64,000 nt of DNA from Histomonas meleagridis (lineage: Eukaryota; Parabasalia; Tritrichomonadida; Dientamoebidae). Below are positions 520 through 61,937 of this stretch, one piece after another. The stretch covers positions 682,001-746,000 of the forward strand of contig WSYJ01000164.1 in assembly GCA_020186115.1 (NCBI GenBank), given 5' to 3'. The position numbers and the translations under genes were made by a program. The notes under the pieces were generated by a model. The model was given only the letters and a program-made list of their open reading frames with translations. It did no database searches and was not told the DNA's origin. Position 1 is the first letter of the stretch. Every line of letters starts with the position of its first letter.

Positions 520-1967
520 TTATTTTGGGATCATTTTACATTTAGCTTGAATTAATTTAGCTATTTCTGTATAACCTTTTGAAGTTGCTTTCATAAGTGC
601 AGTTTCAAATTATATAAATAATTTCCAAATTTTATTTTGAAATATTAAATTATTAAAATAAATTATAAATAAAACAAATAAATATCTTTAGCATTAATAT
701 CAATTCCTTCTTGATCAAGAAGTAATTTAACTATATCTGTATAACCATTTCTAGATGCCCAAATAAGTGCTGTTTCAAATTATTTAAATAATTTCCAAAT
801 ATTATTTTGAAATCCAAAATTAATTAATTAAAAAAATATAATAAATTAATATAATTGTATTAATATCAATTCCTTTTTGTTCCAGAATATATTTTACAAG
901 TTCAATATTTCCTAGTTTAATTGATAAAAATAAAATATCTTTTGTTGGTTGATTTTCTTTAAGAAAATGCTTGATAAAAAATGTATTACCATTTCTTGTT
1001 GCTTCAGAAATAATATTATCATTTATTTTCATTCCTTCTTTAATCAAAAATGTGAAAATATCATAATTATGAAATGATACACAAGTTGTACCTAATTCTT
1101 CTAATTTTAAAATTTCTTTAGTGCTATTTTCATAAATATATTTAAAGATATTATTTCGATGAAACATAATTGCTACACTATATGCATCTTCAAAAATTGA
1201 GTGATTTTGTATACACAAATGAATGATTTCTTCATTTCCACCTGCAATTGCATATTTACCTGTATTTTTTACATTAGCACCATTCATAAGTAAATATTTA
1301 AAACATTTAATAGAAGAAAAAAATGCTGCATAATCAATTAATGTAACATTTTCTTGATTAATAAATGAATATCTTTCATAAAGTGATGGTTCAATAAATT
1401 GATTAAAATTAAAATCATTTTGTGATGACATTTCTTGAAGTTTTTCTATTTCATCATTTCGAATTATTTTTGCAATTTCATTTGGATTAACTCCTTCTTC
1501 AATCAATTGCTTATGAAGTTCCCAATCATTCTTTGAAAGTATTTCGTAGTTTTCCATAATATATTCATAATATTCATCATATTCATGATATTGTATTTCC
1601 TTTCCCATGTAATGAACAAAATGCAAATCCGAAAAAGGAATAGTTTTTGAACTTACAAAATTTTCTTTAATCAAATAATAAAGAATATAATATGATCCTT
1701 CTAAATATCCTTCAAGAAATAAACCAGAAAATATATCAAAAAATTTGGATTGAATTTTATTTGATTCTTCAAACTCTATGATCCCTTTCATAAAAATATT
1801 CGTATATTTGAATGTATGCATATAATTTGACCAATAATTAAGTTAAAGGAAAATGCATAATTTTCATCGAATATGCTAATTAACGAGTTTAATGATTGAT
1901 TAATATTTTTTTCATCTAAGTTAAAGATAATTTGCTGGATTAAATGTGCCTTTTCCCATTCGTTCAT
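520..1967 (-). CDS. Interrupted ankyrin-repeat (DUF3447-type) protein, one frameshift
   Basis: Minus-strand member of the ankyrin family that recurs at 8729, 32004 and 46996. The long exon (about 1800-870) carries the DUF3447-like region, including WELHKQLIEEGVNPNEIAKI and the IDYAAFF ankyrin motif. Two more single-repeat exons follow, and the last ends in a lysine-rich tail with TAA at 520-522. Two spacers separate the exons (82 and 83 nt by my count). An ATG at 1967-1965 opens a second frame (MNEWEKAHLIQQIIFNL) that matches the N-terminus of the 8729 gene. It joins the main frame only if one base is added in the A5 run at 1792-1796, so the gene is either freshly broken or miscalled there. 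The role is inferred: ankyrin proteins are protein-binding scaffolds. Substrate and location cannot be seen. Confidence 0.7.
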
Positions 1968-8191: not shown

Positions 8192-8728
8192 ATGATTTTA
8201 TGAATAAAGTATATGTTAAATATGAATAAATTAAAAATATTTTTGAAAATCTGAAAAAAAAATATATTTTAAATTTTTGTAATAACTTAAATTAAGAATA
8301 TTTTGAGTTATTTTTTTTCTATTTTGTGCTTTTAAACAATTTATTGCATCCTATAAATTAAAATTATTGCACTGGAATATCAAAAACACTGCTCAATTTT
8401 CTCACTCTTATGTATTAAACAATAAAATACATTGTGTGCTCAATTCAGCCATTGTTAACATTTAAAAAACGCAAAAGCATCTCAAATTAGGAAAAACATA
8501 AATACCTTTAATTTTGATATAATATTGTATGTTGTAATTTCATCCGAAGGAACATATATTAATATATAATAAATTATCATGAATCGAGATATTTTCATAA
8601 AGAGTTGCTCTGTGTTTGTACTTGACGCGGTTAATTTAACCCCTCAGCGATTTGTTTGTTTTACACCAAATTTGAATGAGTATTTTTAACCGTCTCAAAC
8701 CATTTCAACGAGAAAGGAAAATAGACCT
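8192..8728. other. Intergenic region resembling the Ras-like gene upstream regions
   Basis: No open frame of note. From about 8440 to 8620 the sequence resembles, in the same order, the region upstream of both Ras-like genes (38130-38345 and 61140-61320): an AAAAGCAT block, a TTTTGATATAATATT-like block, a TTTCAT block and GAGATATTTTCAT followed by AAGAGTTG. This suggests a shared, diverged upstream or promoter region for the ankyrin gene at 8729 and the Ras-like genes. Confidence 0.45.
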
Positions 8729-11633
8729 GTGAAACCAGATAAACAAAACCTAAAATCACAAGATGAATATGATTTTTTGTTATCTATCAAGCAAATTATT
8801 TTTAGCGTGAATACAAAAAATATAGTTCAATCGGCAAATTCAATAATTAATAAATATGATAATAATCATCCATTATCTTATAAAATGCTTATTTCACAAA
8901 TGATGTACATAATGTTTGTTATAAAAAGGAATGAATTTGATATTTATTTGAGTTTTTTACAAGAAATTAAAAGATTTGAAGATAAAAATCAAAACATTTC
9001 AGGTTTTCTTGATGAATTCATACGATTTCTTTTTACTAATTATTCCCAAGAATCAAATTATCTGATTAAGTATATGATTGATCATAATTTGCTTGAACCG
9101 AAAGATATTGAAAATCAAAAAAGACTATTTTTTGTTCATTATATGCCAGAAGATGAATTAAAAAGAATTATATATTATGATTTTAATAAATATTTCGCTT
9201 ATAATTATGATAAACTTTCAGCAAATGATTGGGAACTTCATAAAGAATTAATTAAAGAAGGAGTTAATCCGAATGAAATCTCAAAAATATTTCGAAATGA
9301 TGAAATAGAAAAACTTCAAGAAATGTCATCACAAGAAGATTTCGATTTTGATCAAATAGTTCGACCATCACTTTATGAAAGAAATAGTTTTATTAATCAA
9401 AGGAATGTTACATTAATTGATTATGCAGCATTTTTTGGATCTGTAAAATGTTTTAAATATTTACTTATGAATGGAGCAAATATAAATAATACAGGAAAAT
9501 ATGCAGTTGCAGGTGGAAATGAAGAAATTATTCATTTATGTGAACAAAATCATTCAACATTTGAAGATGCATATGAAACAGCAATTAAATTTCATCAAAA
9601 TGACATCTTTAAATATCTTTATGAAAACAAGATAGTTGATACCTACAATTTAGAAAAATTGGGTGTATGTTGTGTTTTATCTTATAACTTTGAAATTTTT
9701 TCGTTTTTGCTTGGCGAAGGAATGAAAATCAATGATGATATTATTAATGAATCAGCGAGAATTGGTAACTTATATATTGTGAAATATTTTCTTCGAAATA
9801 ATCAAATTCCAAATGATATTTTAGTTTATTCATCAGCATCTAGAAACATTGAACTTGTTAAATATATTTTGGGTCATAATAATTTGGATATTAATGTTAA
9901 AGATATTTTTAGAATATTTTTAGAGTTTATTTTAATAAAATAATGTTTTTAAATAATATTTGAAAATTATTTAAATGATTTAATACAGCCCTTATTTGTG
10001 CATCTGAAAATGGAAATATAGAAATAGTAAAATTACTTCTTGAACAAGAAGGAATTGATATTAATGCTAAAGGTATTTATTTGTTTTATATCGTATTTAT
10101 TTAAATAATTTTATATTTCAAAATAATATTTGGAAATTATTTAAATTATTTAATACAGCATTTATAAGGGCATCTGAAAATGGAAATATAGAAATAGTAA
10201 AATTACTTCTTGAACAAGAAGGAATTGATATTAATGCAAAAGATATTTATATGTTTTCTTTGAAATTTATTTTAATAATTTTTTATCTTAAAATAATATT
10301 TGGAAATTATTTAAATTATTTCAAACAGCACTTATTAATGCATCTTCACATGGTCATATAGAAATAGTTAAATTACTTCTTGAACAAAAAGGAATTGATA
10401 TTAATGATGGGGATGTTTATTTGTTTTACTTAATATTCATTTTAATAATTTTCTATTTCAAGATAATATTTGGAAATTATTTATATTATTTTTTTCAGCA
10501 CTTATTTGTGCTACTAATGAATATTATACAGAAATCGTTAAATTACTTCTTGAACAAGAAGGGATCGATGTTAATGCTAAAGAGATTTATTTGTTTTATT
10601 TCAAATTTATATTTATAATTTGATATTTATTTTAATAATATCAAATTTCAAAATAATATTTGGAAATTATTTAAAATATTTCAATCAGCTCTTATTTGTG
10701 CATCTGTTTTAGATCATGTAGAAATAGTTAAATTACTTCTTGAACAAGAAGGAATTGATATTAATGCTGAAGATATTTATTTGTTATATTTGATATCTAT
10801 TTTGATAATTTTTATATATTTCAAAATAATATTTGGAAATTATTTAAATTAAAAAGAACAGCACTTATGATAGCATCTAAATATGGTTATATCGAAACAG
10901 TCAAATTACTTCTTGAACAAGAAGGAATTGATATTAATGCAAAAGATATTTATTTGTTTTATTTGATATTTATTTTAATAATTTAAAATTTCAAAATAAT
11001 ATTTGGAAATTATTTAAATTATTTAATACAGCACTTATTAAAGCATCTGAAAATGGTCATACAGAAACAGTCAAATTACTTCTTGAACAAAAAGGAATTG
11101 ATATTAATGATAAAGATATTTATTTGTTTTATTTGATATTTATTTTAATAATTTAAAATTTCAAAATAATATTTGGAAATTATTTATATTATTTGAAACA
11201 GCACTTATTAAAGCATCTGAAAATGGTCATACAGAAATAGTTAAATTACTTCTTGAACAAAAAGGAATTGATATTAATGATAAAGATATTTATTTGTTTT
11301 ATTTGATATTTATTTTAATAATTTAAAATTTCAAAATAATATTTGGAAATTATTTATATTATTTGAAACAGCACTTATTAAAGCATCTGAAAATGGTCAT
11401 ACAGAAATAGTTAAATTACTTCTTGAACAAAAAGGAATTGATATTAATGATAAAGATATTTATTTGTTTTATTTGATATTTATTTTAATAATTTAAAATT
11501 TCAAAATAATATTTGGAAATTATTTAAATTATTTCAAACACCACTTATGGTAGCAACTTCAAAAGGTTATGCAGAAATAGCTAAATTAATCCATGAAAAG
11601 GAATTGATATATGCTGCCATGAAAAACCTGTAG
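8729..11633 (+). CDS. Interrupted ankyrin-repeat (DUF3447-type) protein, 11 exons
   Basis: The first exon (8729-9901) encodes about 390 residues: a helical DUF3447-like region (WELHKELIKEGVNPNEISKI, then NVTLIDYAAFFGSVKCFKYLL) followed by several diverged ankyrin repeats. Ten single-repeat exons follow, their ACN/TCN start codons lying at 9985, 10155, 10325, 10495, 10685, 10858, 11028, 11198, 11368 and 11538. Each encodes one open repeat of the type TALIKASENGHTEIVKLL; the last is distinct (TPLMVATSKGYAEIAKLI) and ends in TAG at 11631-11633. Repeats 7-9 are almost identical, so they duplicated recently. No in-frame ATG precedes the conserved N-terminus: the frame opens after a TAA at 8687-8689 and the first candidate is a GTG at 8729; the first in-frame ATG is only at 8885. 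The true start is therefore unresolved. Likely a cytosolic protein-binding scaffold (family knowledge). Confidence 0.75.
9902..11537 (+). repeat. Ten intron-like spacers between ankyrin exons, 170-bp periodic array
   Basis: Spacers, counted from the codon after N-A-K to the codon before T-A-L, lie at 9902-9984, 10072-10154, 10242-10324, 10412-10494, 10582-10684, 10772-10857, 10945-11027, 11115-11197, 11285-11367 and 11455-11537. Eight are 83 nt, one is 86 and one 103, which with the 87-nt exon gives a 170-bp period. They start GATATTTATTTG, contain TTTATTTTAATAATTT near the middle and ATTTGGAAATTATT about 25 nt before the next exon. The 20-nt insertion in the fifth spacer changes the frame without harm to the next exon, which argues that spacers are not translated. 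No GT start or AG end is shared. Confidence 0.8.
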
Positions 11634-26779: not shown

Positions 26780-27060
26780 TTTTTAACCACATGGAACAGC
26801 ATTATTTTCTGCATCTGAAAAGGGATACACAGAAATAGTTAAATTACGTATAGAGAAAAATGGGTTTGATATTAATGCTAAAAATATTATTTCGTTTCAC
26901 ACTGTGTTCATTTTAATAGTGGTATTCTAAAATTTGAATTGATAACTATTCGAATTATTTCGTACAGCGCTTTTAATAGTATCTGAAAATAGCCATACAG
27001 AAATAGTGAAATTACTTCTTGAACAAGAAGGATTGATGGCAATATTCATATTATTCTATT
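26780..27060 (+). pseudogene. Ankyrin-exon relic (two exons and one spacer)
   Basis: Two ankyrin exons remain: TALFSASEKGYTEIVKLRIEKNGFDINAKN and TALLIVSENSHTEIVKLLLEQEG, separated by an 81-nt spacer. The second breaks off in the repeat. The sequence just before the first (TTCATTGTTTTTAACCACATGG) is shared with the atypical 45-nt spacer of the 32004 gene near 32860, so this is a truncated copy of that gene. The rest of 26428-27457 holds no supported gene. Confidence 0.7.
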
Positions 27061-27457: not shown

Positions 27458-29074
27458 TATCAAAACTCAAGTTTCAAAACTTTTATTACCTCAAAAATTC
27501 TTTTTCTTTTATTTGCCCTTTTTTTTAAACAATCATTTGAGACATATGAATCAGGAACGCTTTATATAACTACATCTGATGAATATAATGGAAGAAATAC
27601 ATATAATGAAGCAAGACATGTTAAAATCATTGGCGGTGTTGAAAAAATTGGATCTGATGCTTTTTCAAAATTTTCCTCATTGGCTTCTGTTGAAATTGGT
27701 GTTGGTGTTACTGCATTTGAAAGTTATGCATTTGGTTATCTTAATTCATTGGAAACAGTAACAATTGGCAATTCTGTTACTTTTATTGGAGAATATGCAT
27801 TTATATTATGCTCTTCATTACGTTTGGTTACCTTTGGGGAAAATGTAAGAACAATTGAAGAAGGTGCATTTTCATCATGTACATCATTACCACGCATTAC
27901 AGTTCCAAATTTAGTGACTTCAATTTCAAACACTATGCTTTCTGGTTGTATGAGTTTATTATCAATAATAATCCACGATAATGTCAGAACGATTGGAAAC
28001 CGTGCATTTCAATACTGTTCATCATTAACAAGTATTACAATTCCATCTTCGGTTACAAATATTGGAAATTCTGTGTTTTATGGGTGCGTAAGTATTCAAT
28101 CTATTTATTTTTGTGGTGAAAAAGAACCAACATTTGGATCAGATGTTTTTGAAACTGTACTTGCAGAGAATGTTAAGACATTAAATTCATATAATAGCGA
28201 TACATTTGGCTCAAAACCAGTTTGTAAAGTAACAGCCATTGAAGGATGCATTTCATTAACAACTCATACTTTTACACAATCAAATATATTTACCCGATCA
28301 TATACATTCACTAAATCAAATGTTTTTACAATATCAAATACATTTTCTAAATCAAATACATGTACTAAATCAAATACATTTACTAAATCAAATACATTTA
28401 CTAAATCAAATACATTCACTAAATCAAATACATTCACTAAATCAAATACATTCACTAAATCAAATACATTCACTAAATCAAATACATTCACTAAATCAAA
28501 TACATTTACTAAATCAAATGTTTTTACAATATCATATACATTTTCTAAATCAAATATATTTACTAATTCGAATTCATTCACTTATTCATTTTCATCTTTA
28601 AATTTACTTTCTAATTCATTCCATTTCGATGGAACATTTGTTCATACGATAATTTCCACGCATTCCATTACACAAACCATAATTTCTAAATCGATTATTA
28701 CGAATTCGATTAGTATCACATTAATTCACTCTACATATTATTATATTTATTCTGAATTTATTACATATGAATATATTCCTTATCAATATTCGACGTATTA
28801 TGTGTATTATTCTAATTTTTACACAATACTTCAATATGATTTACACGAAAATGATTCATTTCCGCGAAGTGCGTTAATTGGTATTATCTGTGGAGCAGTA
28901 ATCATCGTATTACTTATGATTGGACTTGTTCTCTTTTTAATTCAACGCAAACAAAAAGGAAATTCGAATACACATACAGAAATGACTACAATAAGTTCGT
29001 CTGAAGGTAATACAGAAGTTATCAACAAAGAATTTAAAGATTTCATTCTTAAAGAAAGTGATCAATGGTTATAA
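27458..29074 (+). CDS. BspA-like leucine-rich-repeat surface protein with transmembrane anchor
   Basis: The frame is open from 27458 to 29074 but has no in-frame ATG before the repeats. A signal-peptide-like run (SKILFLLFALFF) begins near 27491. About 200 residues of BspA-type LRR_5 repeats follow (for example VTIGNSVTFIGEYAF, ITIPSSVTNIGNSVFYGC). Then comes a Ser/Thr/Phe-rich tandem repeat (SNTFTK units), a Thr/Tyr-rich stalk, a transmembrane helix (ALIGIICGAVIIVLLMIGLVLF) and a 45-residue cytoplasmic tail starting IQRKQKG. This is the usual trichomonad BspA layout, associated with host or bacterial adhesion. The ATG-containing frame at 27256-27528 ends within a T8 run; seven Ts there would fuse it to this gene, so either the start is lost by a one-base insertion or the run is miscalled. 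Confidence 0.75.
   Translation, partial: YQNSSFKTFITSKILFLLFALFFKQSFETYESGTLYITTSDEYNGRNTYNEARHVKIIGGVEKIGSDAFSKFSSLASVEIGVGVTAFESYAFGYLNSLETVTIGNSVTFIGEYAFILCSSLRLVTFGENVRTIEEGAFSSCTSLPRITVPNLVTSISNTMLSGCMSLLSIIIHDNVRTIGNRAFQYCSSLTSITIPSSVTNIGNSVFYGCVSIQSIYFCGEKEPTFGSDVFETVLAENVKTLNSYNSDTFGSKPVCKVTAIEGCISLTTHTFTQSNIFTRSYTFTKSNVFTISNTFSKSNTCTKSNTFTKSNTFTKSNTFTKSNTFTKSNTFTKSNTFTKSNTFTKSNTFTKSNVFTISYTFSKSNIFTNSNSFTYSFSSLNLLSNSFHFDGTFVHTIISTHSITQTIISKSIITNSISITLIHSTYYYIYSEFITYEYIPYQYSTYYVYYSNFYTILQYDLHENDSFPRSALIGIICGAVIIVLLMIGLVLFLIQRKQKGNSNTHTEMTTISSSEGNTEVINKEFKDFILKESDQWL
28315..28530 (+). repeat. 18-bp tandem repeat encoding S-N-T-F-T-K
   Basis: About a dozen copies of an 18-bp unit (AAATCAAATACATTCACT and variants) lie in frame inside the BspA-like gene, so copy-number changes keep the frame. 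The central copies (about 28390-28500) are nearly identical, the outer ones drift (TFS, VFT, TCT). It forms an extended Ser/Thr-rich stalk before the membrane anchor. Confidence 0.9.
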
Positions 29075-32003: not shown

Positions 32004-33663
32004 ATGAGTGTTCAACAGCAATTTGAAGAATTTATTCAATGGCTCACAAGGACATCCAAAATCAAAGCGAATGAAAAGTTTAATTTTTTCAATCAATTGC
32101 GGATTTTGTTTATTTTATATAATCTTGCATTTACGTATGCTATCGAATATGGAAAAATTGATGTTATAAAATTACTCCTTAGAGGAATCGATGTTAATGC
32201 AAGGGATATATTTACTTTAATTATTATGATTTTTTAATGAAGTTTTTGATATTTTATATATTTTTTTAAAACACCACTAATGATTGTTTCGGCTGTAGGC
32301 AATATTGAAATTGCAAAACTACTTCTTGAGAAACCTGGAATTGATGTCAATGTAAAAAATGTTTATATTTTTTGTTGAATTTTTGATTAATGAATTTAGT
32401 ATTTCATACACATGTTTGGGGAGTCAATAAAATACTTATAACAGCACTCATTTATGCATTAGAAAACGGTCACACGGAAATAGTTAAAATGCTTCTAGAG
32501 CAAAAAGGAATTGATGTCAATATAAAAAGTATTTTATTATTTGTTTTGTTCCTTAAGCAAATAACTCTATGTTTCCAAATAATTTGTGGAGATTTTTAAA
32601 AAAAATTCATACAGCACTTATACTTGCATGTGATAAAAATTACATAGAGATAGTCAAATTACTCCTTAGACATGAAGGAATTGATATAAATATTAAGGAT
32701 ATTTATTAAAATAATTTTGTAATGCTTATAAGATATATTTGGAATATATATGAAATTTTTAGAACAGCTCTTATGAGAGCTTCTATAAATGGTAATATTG
32801 AAATCGTAAAATTGTTACTAGAACAAAAAGATATTAACTTGAGTTGTTGTTCTGGTAGATTCATTGTTTTTAACCATATGGTTGGAACAGCATTAATTTG
32901 TGCATCTGAAAAAGGTCACACAGAATTAGTCAAATTATTTCTAGAGAAAGAAGGAATTGATATTAACGCTAAAGATATTTAATTGTTTTGTTTGATATTT
33001 GTTTTAATAATTTGATATTTCAATATAATATTTTATAACAATTCAAATTATTTCGTACAGCGCTAATTCTAGCATCTGAAAATGGACATACAGAAATAGT
33101 AAAATTACTTCTTGAACAAGAAGGAATTGATGTCAATATTCAAGATATTTATTTATTTTATTTAGATTTTCTCATACATTTAAGCTTATATTTCAAAGTA
33201 ATTTATAAAAATTAATTAAAATATTTGAAACTGCGTTAATGAAAGCAGTAACTAACGGTCACATAGAAATAGTTAAATTACTTATAAAGCATGAAGGAAT
33301 TGATCTAAATCTCAAAAATATTTTTTTTGTTTATTAGTAACATATTTTAATTTAATATTATTTCAAAATAAAATTTGGAATTTATTAAAAATATTTAAAA
33401 CAGCATTAATTAAAGCTTCAGAAAAACATCGTGCAGACATCGTTAAGATACTTCTTGAACAAAAAGGAATTAACCCTAACGTTAAAGATGAGTTTGTTTG
33501 ATTTATTTCAATATTTAAATATAATATATGGTTTTTTTTGTAATGATTTAAAACTATGCTCTCTAATACAAATTGGGAAAGTGCTTTTGAACTTTTTAGA
33601 TCTATTGCTAACCAAGAAGAACAAAGCAGATGCACTGATATTAAGAAATATCAAAATCATTAA
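32004..33663 (+). CDS. Interrupted ankyrin-repeat protein, 10 exons
   Basis: Starts at the ATG at 32004 (MSVQQQFEEFIQWLTRTSK). The first exon ends with an ankyrin repeat (TYAIEYGKIDVIKLLLRGIDVNARD). Eight single-repeat exons follow, such as TALIYALENGHTEIVKMLL and TALMKAVTNGHIEIVKLLI, and a last exon (TMLSNTNWESAFELFRSIANQ...) ends in TAA at 33661-33663. By hand the nine spacers are 66, 83, 83, 66, 45, 83, 86, 83 and 66 nt. Only the 45-nt spacer is in frame and free of stops. Spacer sequences here are strongly diverged from those at 9902-11537, but they keep the GATATTTAT-like start and, in most, the TTTGGAA block. It lacks the long DUF3447 first exon of its relatives. It lies between the two copies of a dispersed repeat. 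Confidence 0.7.
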
Positions 33664-38021: not shown

Positions 38022-39350
38022 TGAAAAGTGACGTTTTTAACTTACTCTTATAGTCATTGATCATTTCTGAAAGCTCTTTATGCTACCGCATGAGTAGAAA
38101 TATTATTTCTATTTTTTAATATTTGTAATAATTGCACACATTACGTACTTGAGCACACTACTGATAATATTTAAAAAATGGAAAAGCATTTCAAAATTTT
38201 TTCTCAAAAAAGTGAAAATAAAAAGACTTTTGATATTAATATAATATTATACTTGGTAACTTCATTCTAAGTAAGCTATATCAAAGTAAAATAAATCATA
38301 ATAAAAGGAGATATTTTCATTTAAAAAAGAGTTGATCCTCCTGTTTAAAATTCAATGCTAAATTTGAAAATTTTACAAATTTCATGAACGAACCAACGGA
38401 AACAATCAAAATAGCATTTTTTGGTGGGGATTGTGTTGGAAAATTCTATTTGATATTGCGTATGGTTCAAGACAAGTTTAGTGATGAATATGAGCCAAAA
38501 ATTTGCGATTGTTACAAAAAAAACATTACATTTAATAACAAACAGTACACATTAAACCTTTTAAATATACCTGGAATGGAAGTTAATTACCTACGTCCTC
38601 AATTTGTTAGAAGTTATGATTGTTTTGTTCTCGTTTATTCAGTTAATGATCATTATTCTTTTGAATTAATCAATGATATTTATAATACAATTTGTAGATA
38701 CAAAGACAGTGATCATTTTCCATGTGTTATATGTGCAAATAAAATTGACTTAGAAAATGAACGTATTATTAAAAGTGAAGAAGGAAAAGCGCTTGCAGAA
38801 CAATTAGGAGTTCGATATGTTGAGGCATCTGCTAAGACAGGACAGGGAGTCATTGAACTTTTCGAAACAGCTGTAAAAGAATATCTCAAATATAACGGAA
38901 TTGAAGATGAACCTAAAGTTCCTAAACTCGCAAAACGCAAAGAAGTATGCAATGTCCAATGAAAATTCTGCGATTCTTTGATAAAATTAATCAACAATCT
39001 TCATAAAAAACAAATTTTTATCATAAAAGTTACGTTTTTAACTTCCTCTTAGTCATTGATCTCCATTATTTTTCTGCATGGAACTTTGATGACCAAACTA
39101 AATAAAATAATATCAATAAAACAAATATATTTACTTACATTCTGTTAAAAAGGAGTTTGCATTTCAAAAAATGCTTCTATTCCTTTCCATTCTGTATTCG
39201 TTGTTTTTAATTTCTCATTTTCATTGCGCAACTCGTCAATGATCGTTTCCATTCTCTTATTTCCCTCTTTCTCATTCTTAATTTCCAACTTAAGTTTTTC
39301 GATTTTTTGTTTAAGTTTTTCAACAATTTCATTATTTCCTCCGCTTGTTG
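38022..39350 (+). repeat. Segmental duplication, copy 1 (Ras-like locus)
   Basis: The stretch from AAAAGTGACGTTTTT at about 38025 through the Ras-like gene and into the 3' end of the coiled-coil gene (about 39350) recurs at 56763-56950 plus 61152-62302 with only scattered differences. This copy keeps the uninterrupted site (AAAAAATGGAAAAGC near 38170-38190) at which a hAT element sits in copy 2. Confidence 0.9.
38384..38962 (+). CDS. Ras-like pseudo-GTPase with CaaX end (copy 1)
   Basis: 192 residues with the length and order of Ras. The P-loop is GGDCVGKF (14-21): the Lys is kept but the Mg2+-binding Ser is Phe21. Switch I reads DEYEPKICDCY against DEYDPTIEDSY in Ras, so the key Thr is Lys39. 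The DTAGQ motif reads NIPGM (61-65): Asp to Asn and Gln to Met. The base-binding motifs NKID (119-122) and SAK (149-151) are intact, and it ends CNVQ, a CaaX prenylation box. It should bind guanine nucleotide weakly or in a fixed state, should not hydrolyse GTP, and should sit on membranes (inference). A nearly identical paralogue lies at 61359. Confidence 0.85.
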   Translation: MNEPTETIKIAFFGGDCVGKFYLILRMVQDKFSDEYEPKICDCYKKNITFNNKQYTLNLLNIPGMEVNYLRPQFVRSYDCFVLVYSVNDHYSFELINDIYNTICRYKDSDHFPCVICANKIDLENERIIKSEEGKALAEQLGVRYVEASAKTGQGVIELFETAVKEYLKYNGIEDEPKVPKLAKRKEVCNVQ

Positions 39351-46715: not shown

Positions 46716-46995
46716 TGTTTATTCGTAAACGTCTCAAAAGTGGTTATTTTGAAGCTGCCATTTTTTCAAGAAAGGACGTTGAGTCATCAAATTGATTTAT
46801 CGTCTTTTACATATGAATTGAAATTGTGCTGGTTATTTGAGACGTTGTAAAAAGCGGTGATAATGTAACTTTTTCACCAGTTTATTTACATAAACTGATG
46901 AATTTTATCTCATTCGTTTTCTTTAATCCTCTTTTGGGGTGGTGCATTAGGAAAGGGAGACCGTTAATTGATTTTGTAAACGTACACATTCTAAT

Positions 46996-49478
46996 TTGAA
47001 TTCGACTGTGGTTTTATCAATAGAGAAAGAATCTCAAAGTTCTGCACCAGAAAAAAATATTGAATATCTAAAAACTATACAAAATATTATTTGGAGCCTC
47101 AGAGAAGAAAATATTGAAGAAACTATTGAAAAAATAATGAATATATTAGATTTGAATTTTCCATATTCATTCAATCAAGTACTTTCTCAATTGATATATA
47201 TGTCTTTTTATGCAAAACTAAATGACTTCGATATGTATCTCAAATTTATGAAGGGAATAGAAAAAAGAGAAAAGGAAAAAATTCAAAACGAAACTAAATG
47301 TAACATTTTCAAAATATTTGCTAACTATATTTTATGGTTAGGAACACAAGAATCGCATTTCATATTGGAAAAACTGATTAAAGAAAGACTTGTTGATATT
47401 AATGTTGCACAAAAGAAGAAGAATTTCTCTACTAATTTTCAGCTACTTACTATGGATGAAAAAATTCGAAAAGAACATCCAAATGATCTAATAACGATAA
47501 TAAAGAATGATGATATCGGAAAATTACAAGAACTATCATCAAATCCAAACTTTAATTTTAATCAAGTTATTAAACATCCTTATTTTGAGAGATGTACATT
47601 TTTATCCGATCATAATGTTTCACTTATTAATTATGCAGCATTTTATGGATCTATTAAATGTTTTAAGTTTATAATGTCACATAGATCTTATCCATGTTCA
47701 GGTGAATTTGCAGTTGCAGGAGGTAATCTTGAAATATTTCATCTTTGTGAACAAAATGATGGTGATTTTGAAGAATCATATATTACAGCAATACAATTTC
47801 ATCGAAATGATCTTTTCAAATATCTTTTCGAACATAAAATGGATGATATAAAGATAAAAGAATTAGGTTTAGTATGTATTATTTATCATAATTATGAAAT
47901 ATATTCCTTTTTAGAAGAAAAAGGATTAAAACCTAATTATAATATAATTATTGAATCTGTAAAATTAGGAAACATTTACATTGTAAAGCATTTTCTAACT
48001 GTTGGATATCTTTCTGCTAATCTTCTAAATGCATCTCTTGAATCGCAAAACATTGAAATGGTAAAATTTATTCTTGAGCAAAAGAATGTTGATGTTAATG
48101 GTACAGATATATATTCGTTTTATTTAAAATTAATTTTAGTTATTTGCAGTTTAAAAATTTTAATTGGAATTCATTTAAATTATTTAGAACTGCGTTAATG
48201 AATATAGCACTAAAAGGAAATAATATTGATTTAATAAAACTTATTCTTGAGCAAAAATCATTGAATATAAATTATAAAAATATTATTTTATTTTAATTAG
48301 AATTTATTTTTACTTTTTGATGTATGAATAAAATATTAGGTCACTATTTCTTTTATATAGAACTGCATTAATGATTGCTGCTTATCATCATAACGTAGAA
48401 GTAGTAAAATTACTTCTTGAACATAAAGGTATTGATGTTAACGTTAAAAATATTTAAGTTAATTTTTTAAAGTTTGTTTCAAATTTATATGGTTTCAAAC
48501 CAATTATTGGAATTTATTTATAATATTTAAAACAATATTAATAATTGAAACTGAGCTTTATCACATTGATATCATAAAATTACTTCTTGAGCATAAAGGA
48601 AAAGATATTAATGCAAAAGATGTTAAAATTAAATTTTCGATGTTCTTTTTAATAATTCCAAATTCATTTATAGCATTTAAAATATATTTGTTTCATTTAA
48701 GACAGCTTTAACTTATGCAATTGAAAAAGGTTATATCGAAATTGTTACATTACTTCTTCAACAAAAAGGAATTGATATTAATGTTAAAGATATTTAAATT
48801 TTATTTTTATTAATTTCAAGTTTCATTAAAATATTTGGAATTTGTTTAAATTATATAAAACTCCTTTGATGTATGTAGCTACATTATCTAATCCTCAAAT
48901 GATAAAATTGCTTCTTTCACAAAAAGGAATTGATATTAATGCTAAAACAGTCATTTTTATTGATTTGATTATTAATTTACTTAATTTTCTGTTTGCTAAA
49001 TAAATTTCTGGAATTTTTACAATCTTTTCGAAACACCACTCATGTATGCATCTGCAAGTGGGAGCATCGATGCTGTTAAATTACTTCTTGAACAGAAAAA
49101 TACTAATGTAGATGCTCAAAATATATTAATAAATTATTTTGTGTTTATTTTAGTCAATTAATGTTTAAATACAAAATTTGGAATTTATACAAATATTTAT
49201 TGGACAGCACTTATGTATGCATCGCGATCTGGTCGAATCGATATTATTAATTTATTCCTTCAAAAAGGTGCTAATATTCTTATCAAAGATGTTTAATAAT
49301 TTTGCTTAGAATTTGTTTTTTTATTTTAATATTTCTAAAACATATTTGGAGTTTATTTAAAATGTTGTTTACAGCAATTAATTGGGCTGCTTCCTGTGGT
49401 CGTTTTGATATAGTTCAAATATTTTATTCTAAGTTAAGTATTCCTTTTAATATGCCTTCTCCTTATGTTAGATACTAA
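46996..49478 (+). CDS. Interrupted ankyrin-repeat (DUF3447-type) protein, 9 exons
   Basis: First exon 46996 to 48105 with a DUF3447-like region (KTIQNIIWSLREENIEET..., HPNDLITIIKNDDIGKLQELSSNPNFNFNQV, SLINYAAFYGSIKCFKFI). Eight single-repeat exons follow, for example TALMIAAYHHNVEVVKLLLEHKGID and TALMYASRSGRIDIINLFL, and the last (TAINWAASCGRFDIVQIFY) ends in TAA at 49476-49478. The eight spacers are 83, 83, 83, 83, 71, 86, 84 and 83 nt. Their sequences have diverged strongly from each other, so the repeated value of 83 is not due to recent duplication. No in-frame ATG precedes the conserved N-terminus: the frame opens after a TGA at 46969-46971, with only TTG and GTG candidates before an ATG at 47137. 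Likely a protein-binding scaffold. Confidence 0.75.
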
Positions 49479-49587: not shown

Positions 49588-49612
49588 ATATATATATATA
49601 TATATATATATA
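49588..49612. repeat. TA dinucleotide microsatellite
   Basis: About 12 TA units between the ankyrin gene and an ankyrin-exon relic. Confidence 0.9.
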
Positions 49613-49624
49613 ACAAAACCGCTA

Positions 49625-49812
49625 CGATTTGGGCGAAATAGTTAAATTACTTATACAACAAGAAGGAATTGATATTGATACTAAAAATATTTATTTTGTT
49701 AATTTAAAAATTAACATAATTATGTTTCAAATTTCCAATATTTTAATCCAAATTAAATTATTTCAAACATGACTTATATTAGCAACTAAAAATGAATATA
49801 TAGAAATAGTTT
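49625..49812 (+). pseudogene. Ankyrin-exon relic with internal stop
   Basis: Half an ankyrin exon (EIVKLLIQQEGIDIDTKN), an 81-nt spacer and a second exon beginning T-stop-LILATKNEYIEIV. A TGA stands where the Ala codon of T-A-L is expected. Unlike the arrayed exons of the four main genes this one has decayed, which shows what unselected copies look like. Confidence 0.65.
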
Positions 49813-61358: not shown

Positions 61359-61937
61359 ATGAACGAACCAACGGAAACAATCAAAATAGCATTTTTTGGT
61401 GGGGATTGTGTTGGAAAATTCTATTTGATATTGCGTATGGTTCAAGACAAGTTTAGTGATGAATATGAATCAAAAGCTGGCAATTGTTACAAGAAAAACA
61501 TTACATTTAATAACAAACAGTACACATTAAATCTTTTAAATATACCTGGAATGGAATGTAATTACCTACGTCCTCAATTTGTTAGAAGTTGTGATTGTTT
61601 TGTTCTCGTTTATTCAGTTAATGATCATGGTTCTTTTGAATTAATCAATGATATTTATAATGAAATTTGTAGATACAAAGACAGTGATCATTTTCCATGT
61701 GTTATGTGTGCAAATAAAATTGACTTAGAAAATGAACGTATTATTAAAAGTGAAGAAGGAAAAGCACTTGCAGAACAATTGGGAGTTCAATATGTTGAGG
61801 CATCTGCTAAGACAGGACAGGGAGTCATTGAACTTTTCGAAACAGCTGTAAAAGAATATCTCAAATATAACGGAATTGAAGATGAACCTAAAGTTCCTAA
61901 ACTCGCAAAACGCAAAGAAGTATGCAATGTCCAATGA
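61359..61937 (+). CDS. Ras-like pseudo-GTPase with CaaX end (copy 2)
   Basis: 192 residues, differing from the 38384 copy at ten positions: P38S, I40A, C41G, D42N, V67C, Y78C, Y91G, T102E, I116M and R144Q. Four of the ten are in the switch I region and several codons differ at two bases, whereas I count only five synonymous changes. The P-loop Phe21, Lys39 and Asn61 are the same in both copies, so loss of the Mg2+ site predates the duplication. NKID, SAK and the CNVQ end are retained and the frame is intact. The promoter region is now separated from older upstream sequence by the 4.2-kb hAT element 208 bp before the ATG. Confidence 0.85.
   Translation: MNEPTETIKIAFFGGDCVGKFYLILRMVQDKFSDEYESKAGNCYKKNITFNNKQYTLNLLNIPGMECNYLRPQFVRSCDCFVLVYSVNDHGSFELINDIYNEICRYKDSDHFPCVMCANKIDLENERIIKSEEGKALAEQLGVQYVEASAKTGQGVIELFETAVKEYLKYNGIEDEPKVPKLAKRKEVCNVQ

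Follow-up and report, generated by a model that had tools for sequence, protein, structure and literature searches.

Introduction

How can a protein be read from a gene in which every ankyrin repeat is separated from the next by a spacer lacking GT-AG ends? This question is raised by the gene at 8729-11633 (+) in a window of 64,000 nt from Histomonas meleagridis. The window corresponds to positions 682001-746000 of one contig, and the genome searched is the 43.28-Mb, 121-contig assembly to which it belongs. An initial annotation had reported four such genes in the window and offered three explanations, i.e. non-canonical splicing, ribosomal bypassing and silent cassette arrays.

In Trichomonas vaginalis, introns of types A and B carry GT/AG ends together with an extended motif on the 5' side and an ACTAA branch site that is fused to the 3' site, and 63 of them are active (PMC12316389); in Tritrichomonas musculus, introns are reported for 5.66% of the genes (PMC11978803). 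The Histomonas genome paper gives 573 introns with at most one per gene, using AUGUSTUS trained on a transcriptome (PMC8529796). Euglenid and diplonemid nonconventional introns have non-canonical borders and a removal mechanism described as unknown (PMC4770533, PMC6221363, PMC12621601), and in tunicates most introns escape the GT/AG rule, for which a divergent U2AF and snRNA modification have been invoked (PMC13326754). Among the open-licence PMC articles listed by our searches, no title or abstract opening describes such spacers or DUF3447/ankyrin genes with one repeat per exon.

Results

Ankyrin exons and spacers alternate in four genes of the window

Exon-spacer arrays are present at all four places at which they had been reported. 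Their features are:

8729..9904, forward strand: N-terminal exon with DUF3447 and ankyrin repeats, ending in ...DINVKD, no in-frame ATG
9905..9984, forward strand: spacer 1, 80 nt
9985..10074, forward strand: ankyrin exon, 30 codons
10075..10154, forward strand: spacer 2, 80 nt
10155..10244, forward strand: ankyrin exon
10245..10324, forward strand: spacer 3, 80 nt
10325..10414, forward strand: ankyrin exon
10415..10494, forward strand: spacer 4, 80 nt
10495..10584, forward strand: ankyrin exon
10585..10684, forward strand: spacer 5, 100 nt
10685..10774, forward strand: ankyrin exon
10775..10857, forward strand: spacer 6, 83 nt
10858..10947, forward strand: ankyrin exon
10948..11027, forward strand: spacer 7, 80 nt
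11028..11117, forward strand: ankyrin exon
11118..11197, forward strand: spacer 8, 80 nt
11198..11287, forward strand: ankyrin exon
11288..11367, forward strand: spacer 9, 80 nt
11368..11457, forward strand: ankyrin exon
11458..11537, forward strand: spacer 10, 80 nt
11538..11633, forward strand: terminal exon with stop TAG and C-terminal cap repeat (by eye)
46996..48108, forward strand: second gene, N-terminal exon
48109..49370, forward strand: second gene, array of eight spacers (80, 80, 80, 80, 68, 83, 81 and 80 nt) and seven exons
49371..49478, forward strand: second gene, terminal exon (by eye)
32124..33489, forward strand: third gene, array with spacers of 63, 80, 80 and 63 nt, one short spacer, and spacers of 80, 83 and 80 nt; one more spacer and the last exon follow, up to 33663
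520..1967, reverse strand: fourth gene, with an N-terminal exon with ATG, spacers of 76 and 80 nt and a cap exon

Each array exon encodes one ankyrin repeat with the consensus TALI.AS.NGH.EIVKLLLEQ.GIDINAKD, and the array unit consists of this 90-nt exon and a spacer that is most often 80 nt long. In the gene at 8729-11633 the steps from unit to unit are 170, 170, 170, 170, 190, 173, 170, 170, 170 and 170 nt, giving eight spacers of 80 nt, one of 100 nt and one of 83 nt. The initial annotation had set the common spacer length at 83 nt: the constancy stands, but the length is 80 nt when the spacer is taken to start right after the NAKD codon and to run up to the Thr codon of TAL, the figure of 83 including the coding-looking codon before Thr. 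With this correction, five of the eight spacers at 46996-49478 are indeed equal (the fifth, at 49291-49370, was read by eye). The short spacer of the third gene measures 33 nt by profile and 45 nt by the earlier reading.

The earlier inventory of array exons was incomplete in that it lacked two exons (26796, 26964) separated by a 78-nt spacer at 26796-27053 (+), where no N-terminal exon was seen just upstream. By eye, the second exon of this relic-like pair has lost one base, and the pair resembles the stretch near 32840-33130. An orphan ankyrin exon with spacer-like sequence is found at 49599-49780 (+), behind an (AT)n run that follows the gene at 46996. Elsewhere in the window, two ORFs at 38384-38962 and 61359-61937 (+), 23 kb apart, are 94.8% identical and the first matches the Ras family; an 18-nt tandem repeat of 17.6 copies at 28266-28582 (+) encodes a six-residue repeat in an ORF that has a BspA-type leucine-rich repeat region. 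Scanning the window against Rfam with gathering cut-offs gave no match.

The arrays belong to a large family

The genome search for the exon-spacer unit that had been proposed as a check returned 1,811 matches to the exact pattern GATATTAATG-N(78-108)-ACAGCACTTA and none for the reversed control. A step of 170 nt was found in 245 of 313 cases in the 22 arrays fetched first, and 288 of 357 spacers are 80 nt long, lengths from 60 to 100 nt being seen; by eye, lengths other than 80 lean slightly to steps of 3. A search with the N-terminal exon gave 103 scored loci, which is a lower bound, and 22 of the 103 exons contain an internal stop. Spaced repeats follow the N-terminal exon in all 30 related loci inspected, one of which is the gene at 8729 (L031). 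The protein P0001 matches PF11929 (DUF3447; 47.3 bits) and PF12796 (46.9 bits) above the cut-offs. A Met codon lies near the start in 28 of the 30 loci by eye, the exceptions being L031 and L054, and the genes at 8729 and 46996 have no in-frame ATG ahead of the conserved part. A start like TTTTCCACATG is, by eye, common to about half of the 30 loci; the corresponding regions of the genes at 8729 and 46996 (8600-8760 and 46900-47000) have no in-frame ATG.

Every gene had been described as ending in a distinct stop-bearing exon. The stop-bearing exon was found, but it is not distinct in each gene, as a similar final exon of the ATSKGY type with a stop is shared by at least four genes (L032 and L045, and by eye those at 8729 and 520), and those of L047, L056 and 46996 differ from this type.

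These data bear on the silent cassette model, in which array exons would be donors that are recombined into an expressed site and translated only there. As in donor arrays, the units within an array are alike and some exon codons are hypervariable. Against this, directly joined units with the same flanks at a distance of 4-34 nt numbered 0 in the genome compared with the 1,811 spaced units, in a search for exact flanks that copies with other flanks could escape. Moreover, in nearly all 30 loci the N-terminal exon closes with a repeat of approximately 20-45 bits while most array repeats score 50-70 bits, which argues that this closing repeat has not been overwritten by array units, and the arrays finish with a stop-bearing exon. 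We consider silent cassettes quite unlikely.

Array exons, unlike spacers, avoid stop codons

Array exons contain 10 stops in 11,190 codons (373 unique exons) compared with 203 expected from column base frequencies, in a set of profile hits of at least 40 bits and anchor-found exons from which the score filter could hide decayed exons; the anchor-found exons, which were chosen by DNA alone, have a stop in 9 of 335. Most of the deficit lies at the hypervariable codons 5, 8 and 9 (1 stop versus 157 expected). In column sums over 291 unique spacers, the stops observed and expected are 193 and 202 for the upstream frame, 111 and 139 for the downstream frame once the codon before Thr is excluded, and 1472 and 1460 for the third frame; we ascribe the downstream shortfall, without proof, to linkage. 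At matched codon types (AAA, CAA, GGA and TTA), stops occur in 3 of 2,238 exon codons and 199 of 4,074 spacer codons (p = 2e-34), in agreement with the initial description of open exons and stop-bearing spacers; a single hypervariable spacer column contributes 104 of the 199 stops, and without it the count is 95 of 3,783.

The codon before Thr, in which N, K, E, R, W, Y, Q and D predominate, has 0 stops versus 30.4 expected and looks like part of the coding region rather than of the spacer. Two non-coding columns also have 0 stops, versus 10.5 and 15.5 expected, through linkage. Because single columns are thus weak evidence, the coding conclusion is based on the column sums and the matched-codon test. 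N-terminal exons are under purifying selection as judged from a median dN/dS of 0.475 (435 pairs). Together, the stop patterns support the conclusion that array exons are under coding selection and that spacers show none.

By the amount of change, the measure that the initial annotation had proposed for refuting its reading, exons change as fast as spacers; the two differ in the kind of change. Within arrays, the three exon codon positions differ by 0.111, 0.079 and 0.103 and spacer sites by 0.100, and in pooled unique sequences the difference is 0.194 for exons and 0.139 for spacers; exons nevertheless avoid stops. Since exons differ more between units than spacers do, their scarcity of stops does not reflect youth. 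This comparison also speaks against decaying pseudogene arrays, in which nothing would be translated past the first spacer. The stops inside N-terminal exons and the missing ATG of the genes at 8729 and 46996 would fit such decay, but stops are 20 times rarer than expected in the exons of units whose spacers carry them freely. We find this explanation hardly credible for the family as a whole, at which level coding selection on the exons is seen; single copies may be dead.

A 3' element at a fixed distance is kept in spacers

The six most diverged genes examined provide 31 spacers; 19 of these have kept a length of exactly 80 nt at a mean pairwise identity of 0.575 (approximately 0.32 for random sequences). 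A GG exactly 23 nt before the next exon is present in 21 of the 31 spacers. Among 46 further diverged spacers, of which 23 are 63 nt long and probably related, 34 have it too; in 1,000 shuffles the count exceeds 4 at no position. An example is:

10128..10151, forward strand: conserved 3' spacer motif ATTTGGAAATTATTTAAATTATTT, with GG 23 nt before the Thr codon at 10155

This 3' element (NGGA at a fixed distance and then approximately TTTAAATTATTT) is our top candidate for a recognition signal; at the 5' side of spacers we found no signal stronger than an AT-rich consensus. That the GG is part of a Trp codon is unlikely because the preceding base varies in some diverged spacers (AGG, CGG; by eye). 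The TGG codon in the downstream frame of the spacer is a stop in 36 of 291 spacers; an exon codon that is TGG in 50 cases shows a single stop, all types counted. The family also has spacers of 63 and 60 nt that are in frame and often open. The 63-nt spacers seem to be untranslated too, since some array copies have TGA at the TGG codon (by eye). A programmed -1 frameshift with translation of the spacer, for which an 80-nt spacer (2 modulo 3) and in-frame spacers of 63 and 60 nt would be suited, was rejected because the number of in-frame stops in spacers is close to that expected.

The second half of the spacer seemed to contain a stem, but a hairpin was not supported. No strong fold was found among 168 spacers, with mean fold z values of -0.81 to +0.19 across divergence classes. 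In 116 diverged spacers the duplex energy of 5'-3' end pairing equals that of shuffles (mean z 0.01) and of cross-gene pairs (p = 0.38), and the longest shared end words average 5.65 within spacers and 5.61 across genes (p = 0.97), with no sign of covariation between the ends.

Known bypassing elements, i.e. T4 gene 60 and the byps of yeast mitochondria, leave an untranslated gap in the reading frame, as the spacers would, and have matching take-off and landing codons and a hairpin. Ribosomal bypassing, with the spacers staying in the mRNA and the ribosome hopping over each of them, would be in keeping with the tightly kept spacer length and with splice signals not being found (see below). Matching end words and a strong fold were not detected in our spacers, their lengths range from 60 to 100 nt, and the gene at 8729 would need about ten hops per protein, which together make this model highly unlikely.

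Spacers lack the signals of ordinary introns

In line with the initial claim that no common GT donor or AG acceptor keeps the frame, only 4 of 357 spacers (378 units minus 21 in which the next exon begins other than with AC) have a GT within their first 20 nt that forms a frame-keeping pair with an AG within their last 25 nt, and AG is absent from the last 25 nt in 328 of 357. None of these 357 spacers, nor of 48 further ones, has GTATGT within its first 30 nt or CTAAC within its last 45 nt; CTAA was found in the last 45 nt in 7 of 357, and AG or AC directly before the coding codon in 0 of 357. U12-type AT-AC introns are marked by an ATATCC donor, a CCTTAA branch site and an AC end, each of which is present in 0 of the 357 spacers. 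An acceptor at ACAG inside the exon would render the codon before Thr intronic, contrary to its stop pattern. These counts support the conclusion, drawn from sequence patterns, that ordinary GT-AG introns do not fit the spacers. A genome search with GTATGT-N(8-38)-ACTAAC-N(0-5)-AG gave 7 matches compared with 84 for the reversed control and thus provides no estimate of the true number of introns.

The standard spliceosome might still act on unusual ends with the fixed-position 3' element as a guide, which would be a sub-case of removal from RNA. The genome has U2 (80.5 bits) with the canonical GTAGTA and U6 (43.7 bits, just below the family cut-off of 44) with the canonical ACAGAGA, and the fixed distance of the 3' element is reminiscent of T. 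vaginalis introns, in which branch site and 3' site are fused (PMC12316389). The absence of CTAAC, the rarity of CTAA and the absence of AG or AC before the coding codon in the 357 spacers speak against it, and we regard this sub-case as unlikely.

Relatives without the first spacer point to putative cut points

Spaced units read GAT ATT on the 5' side of the junction and TTA TTT NNN ACA on its 3' side. At the first junction, where both are without a spacer, the gene L061 reads N-V-L-F-E-S-P-L and the protein P0007 reads N-V-M-F-E-S-A-L; these residues are those expected from ATT plus TTA TTT NNN, and fit removal of 68 nt, a D-I-L-F-x-T junction and a repeat of 34 residues. P0007 is 60% identical to L061 over the alignment and has no closer match in the genome, and it is therefore probably from another organism. 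After its second repeat, P0007 continues with ICMIYFMYFSII and then ends, as a spacer would read. A search with this tail for multi-repeat proteins gave five matches, 0 of them named Histomonas.

Stops argue for a slightly different 3' border. Codon -9 (TTA) has 6 stops versus 6.3 expected in 291 units and is thus unprotected, codon -6 has 3 versus 0.2 expected, and in 378 units a stop is found at -9 in 9 and at -6 in 4, one of these being a register artefact. An unprotected TTA favours removal of 71 nt (D-I-F-x-T) or more over 68 nt. At the 5' border, the codon that follows D is in most cases ATT, where no stop is expected, and the one after it is unprotected, with 4 stops versus 3.4 expected. 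The earlier estimate of 68-71 nt, made from frame arithmetic, is thus matched at its lower end by the L061/P0007 junction and pushed to 71 nt or beyond by the TTA stops. We leave the putative removed stretch at 68-71 nt, or perhaps 74 nt, with cut points placed to within a few bases.

Six of 13 relatives from ENA (P0004, P0008, P0010, P0012, P0013 and P0014) have D-I or D-V as their very last residues, as though the next codon were a stop, and P0003 runs through a spacer of similar length, with F-G where Histomonas has TTT-GGA (by eye). Among six relatives that were picked for stop-free alignment to P0007, and are thus biased towards open frames, L063 is joined but, unlike L061 and P0007, has S-I-T-K at the junction, L062 retains part of a spacer, and in L064-L067 the spacers (60 and 63 nt) are in frame and open.

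Discussion

The coding selection on array exons suggests that they are translated, in which case something must bring them together. Removal from RNA is the simplest account, and we suggest that the spacers are intron-like and would be cut from the RNA before translation by a route other than GT-AG splicing. We assign this reading a probability of approximately 0.55, with removal, cut points and machinery all deduced from DNA and protein sequences; P0007 is the single protein behind the cross-species comparison, for which reason the value was lowered from 0.58. In this model, (i) approximately 68-71 nt of each 170-nt unit would be removed, (ii) NAKD-[IV] would be rejoined to (L-)F-x-TAL to give a repeat of 33-34 residues, and (iii) the resulting protein would start with a DUF3447 domain, continue with repeats in variable number and finish with a C-terminal cap. 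Of the three explanations offered initially, non-canonical splicing is thus preferred, silent cassettes being weakened by the lack of joined copies and bypassing by the lack of shared end words and of a strong fold. The published annotation, which has 573 introns and no gene with more than one (PMC8529796), stands against removal from RNA.

The spacers share two features with trichomonad spliceosomal introns: they are short intervening sequences in a parabasalid, and their 3' element keeps a constant spacing to the exon; but the GT/AG ends, 5' motif and ACTAA of the latter were not found, and at least 1,811 spacers occur in one family. Euglenid nonconventional introns similarly have non-canonical borders; they form a stable RNA structure that joins the ends, whereas no end pairing or strong fold was found in Histomonas spacers, which are also of near-constant length and found in one gene family. 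Tunicate introns outside the GT/AG rule are alike in their borders, whereas the core motifs of Histomonas U2 and U6 are canonical. Compared with other DUF3447/ankyrin proteins, the family shares the PF11929 and ankyrin matches and differs in having one repeat per exon with spacers in between.

More tentatively, and with odds that we place somewhat short of even, the spacers may represent a new intron class in Histomonas and probably a relative. This class would comprise thousands of introns of near-constant length (65-75 nt), without GT-AG ends or end pairing, that are recognized by NGGA at its constant spacing from the 3' exon and removed by a spliceosome-independent or re-programmed pathway, and it would permit free shuffling of repeat exons in a hypervariable family of binding proteins.

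Only 3 of the 26 proteins found in a protein search, which was limited by length and shared words, have a Histomonas name. Set against the 103 loci scored, this suggests that many variable ankyrin genes are absent from the public annotation. P0016, which is Histomonas by source name, has a best match of only 69% in the assembly. An NCBI protein of H. meleagridis, P0027 (GPJ56_003166), is identical to the assembly (100%) along 601 residues. The variable residues of the array exons are at positions that we take to be those at which ankyrin proteins contact their targets, and so the family members look like variable binding proteins with repeats shuffled by recombination, which is their likely role.

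Histomonas meleagridis, a poultry parasite, thus has a large ankyrin family in which a spacer follows each repeat. Should these spacers be removed from the RNA, this one family would hold about three times the 573 introns annotated for the whole genome, the GT-AG rule would be broken in a genome with canonical U2 and U6, and there would be a further lineage, beside the euglenozoans, with nonconventional introns.
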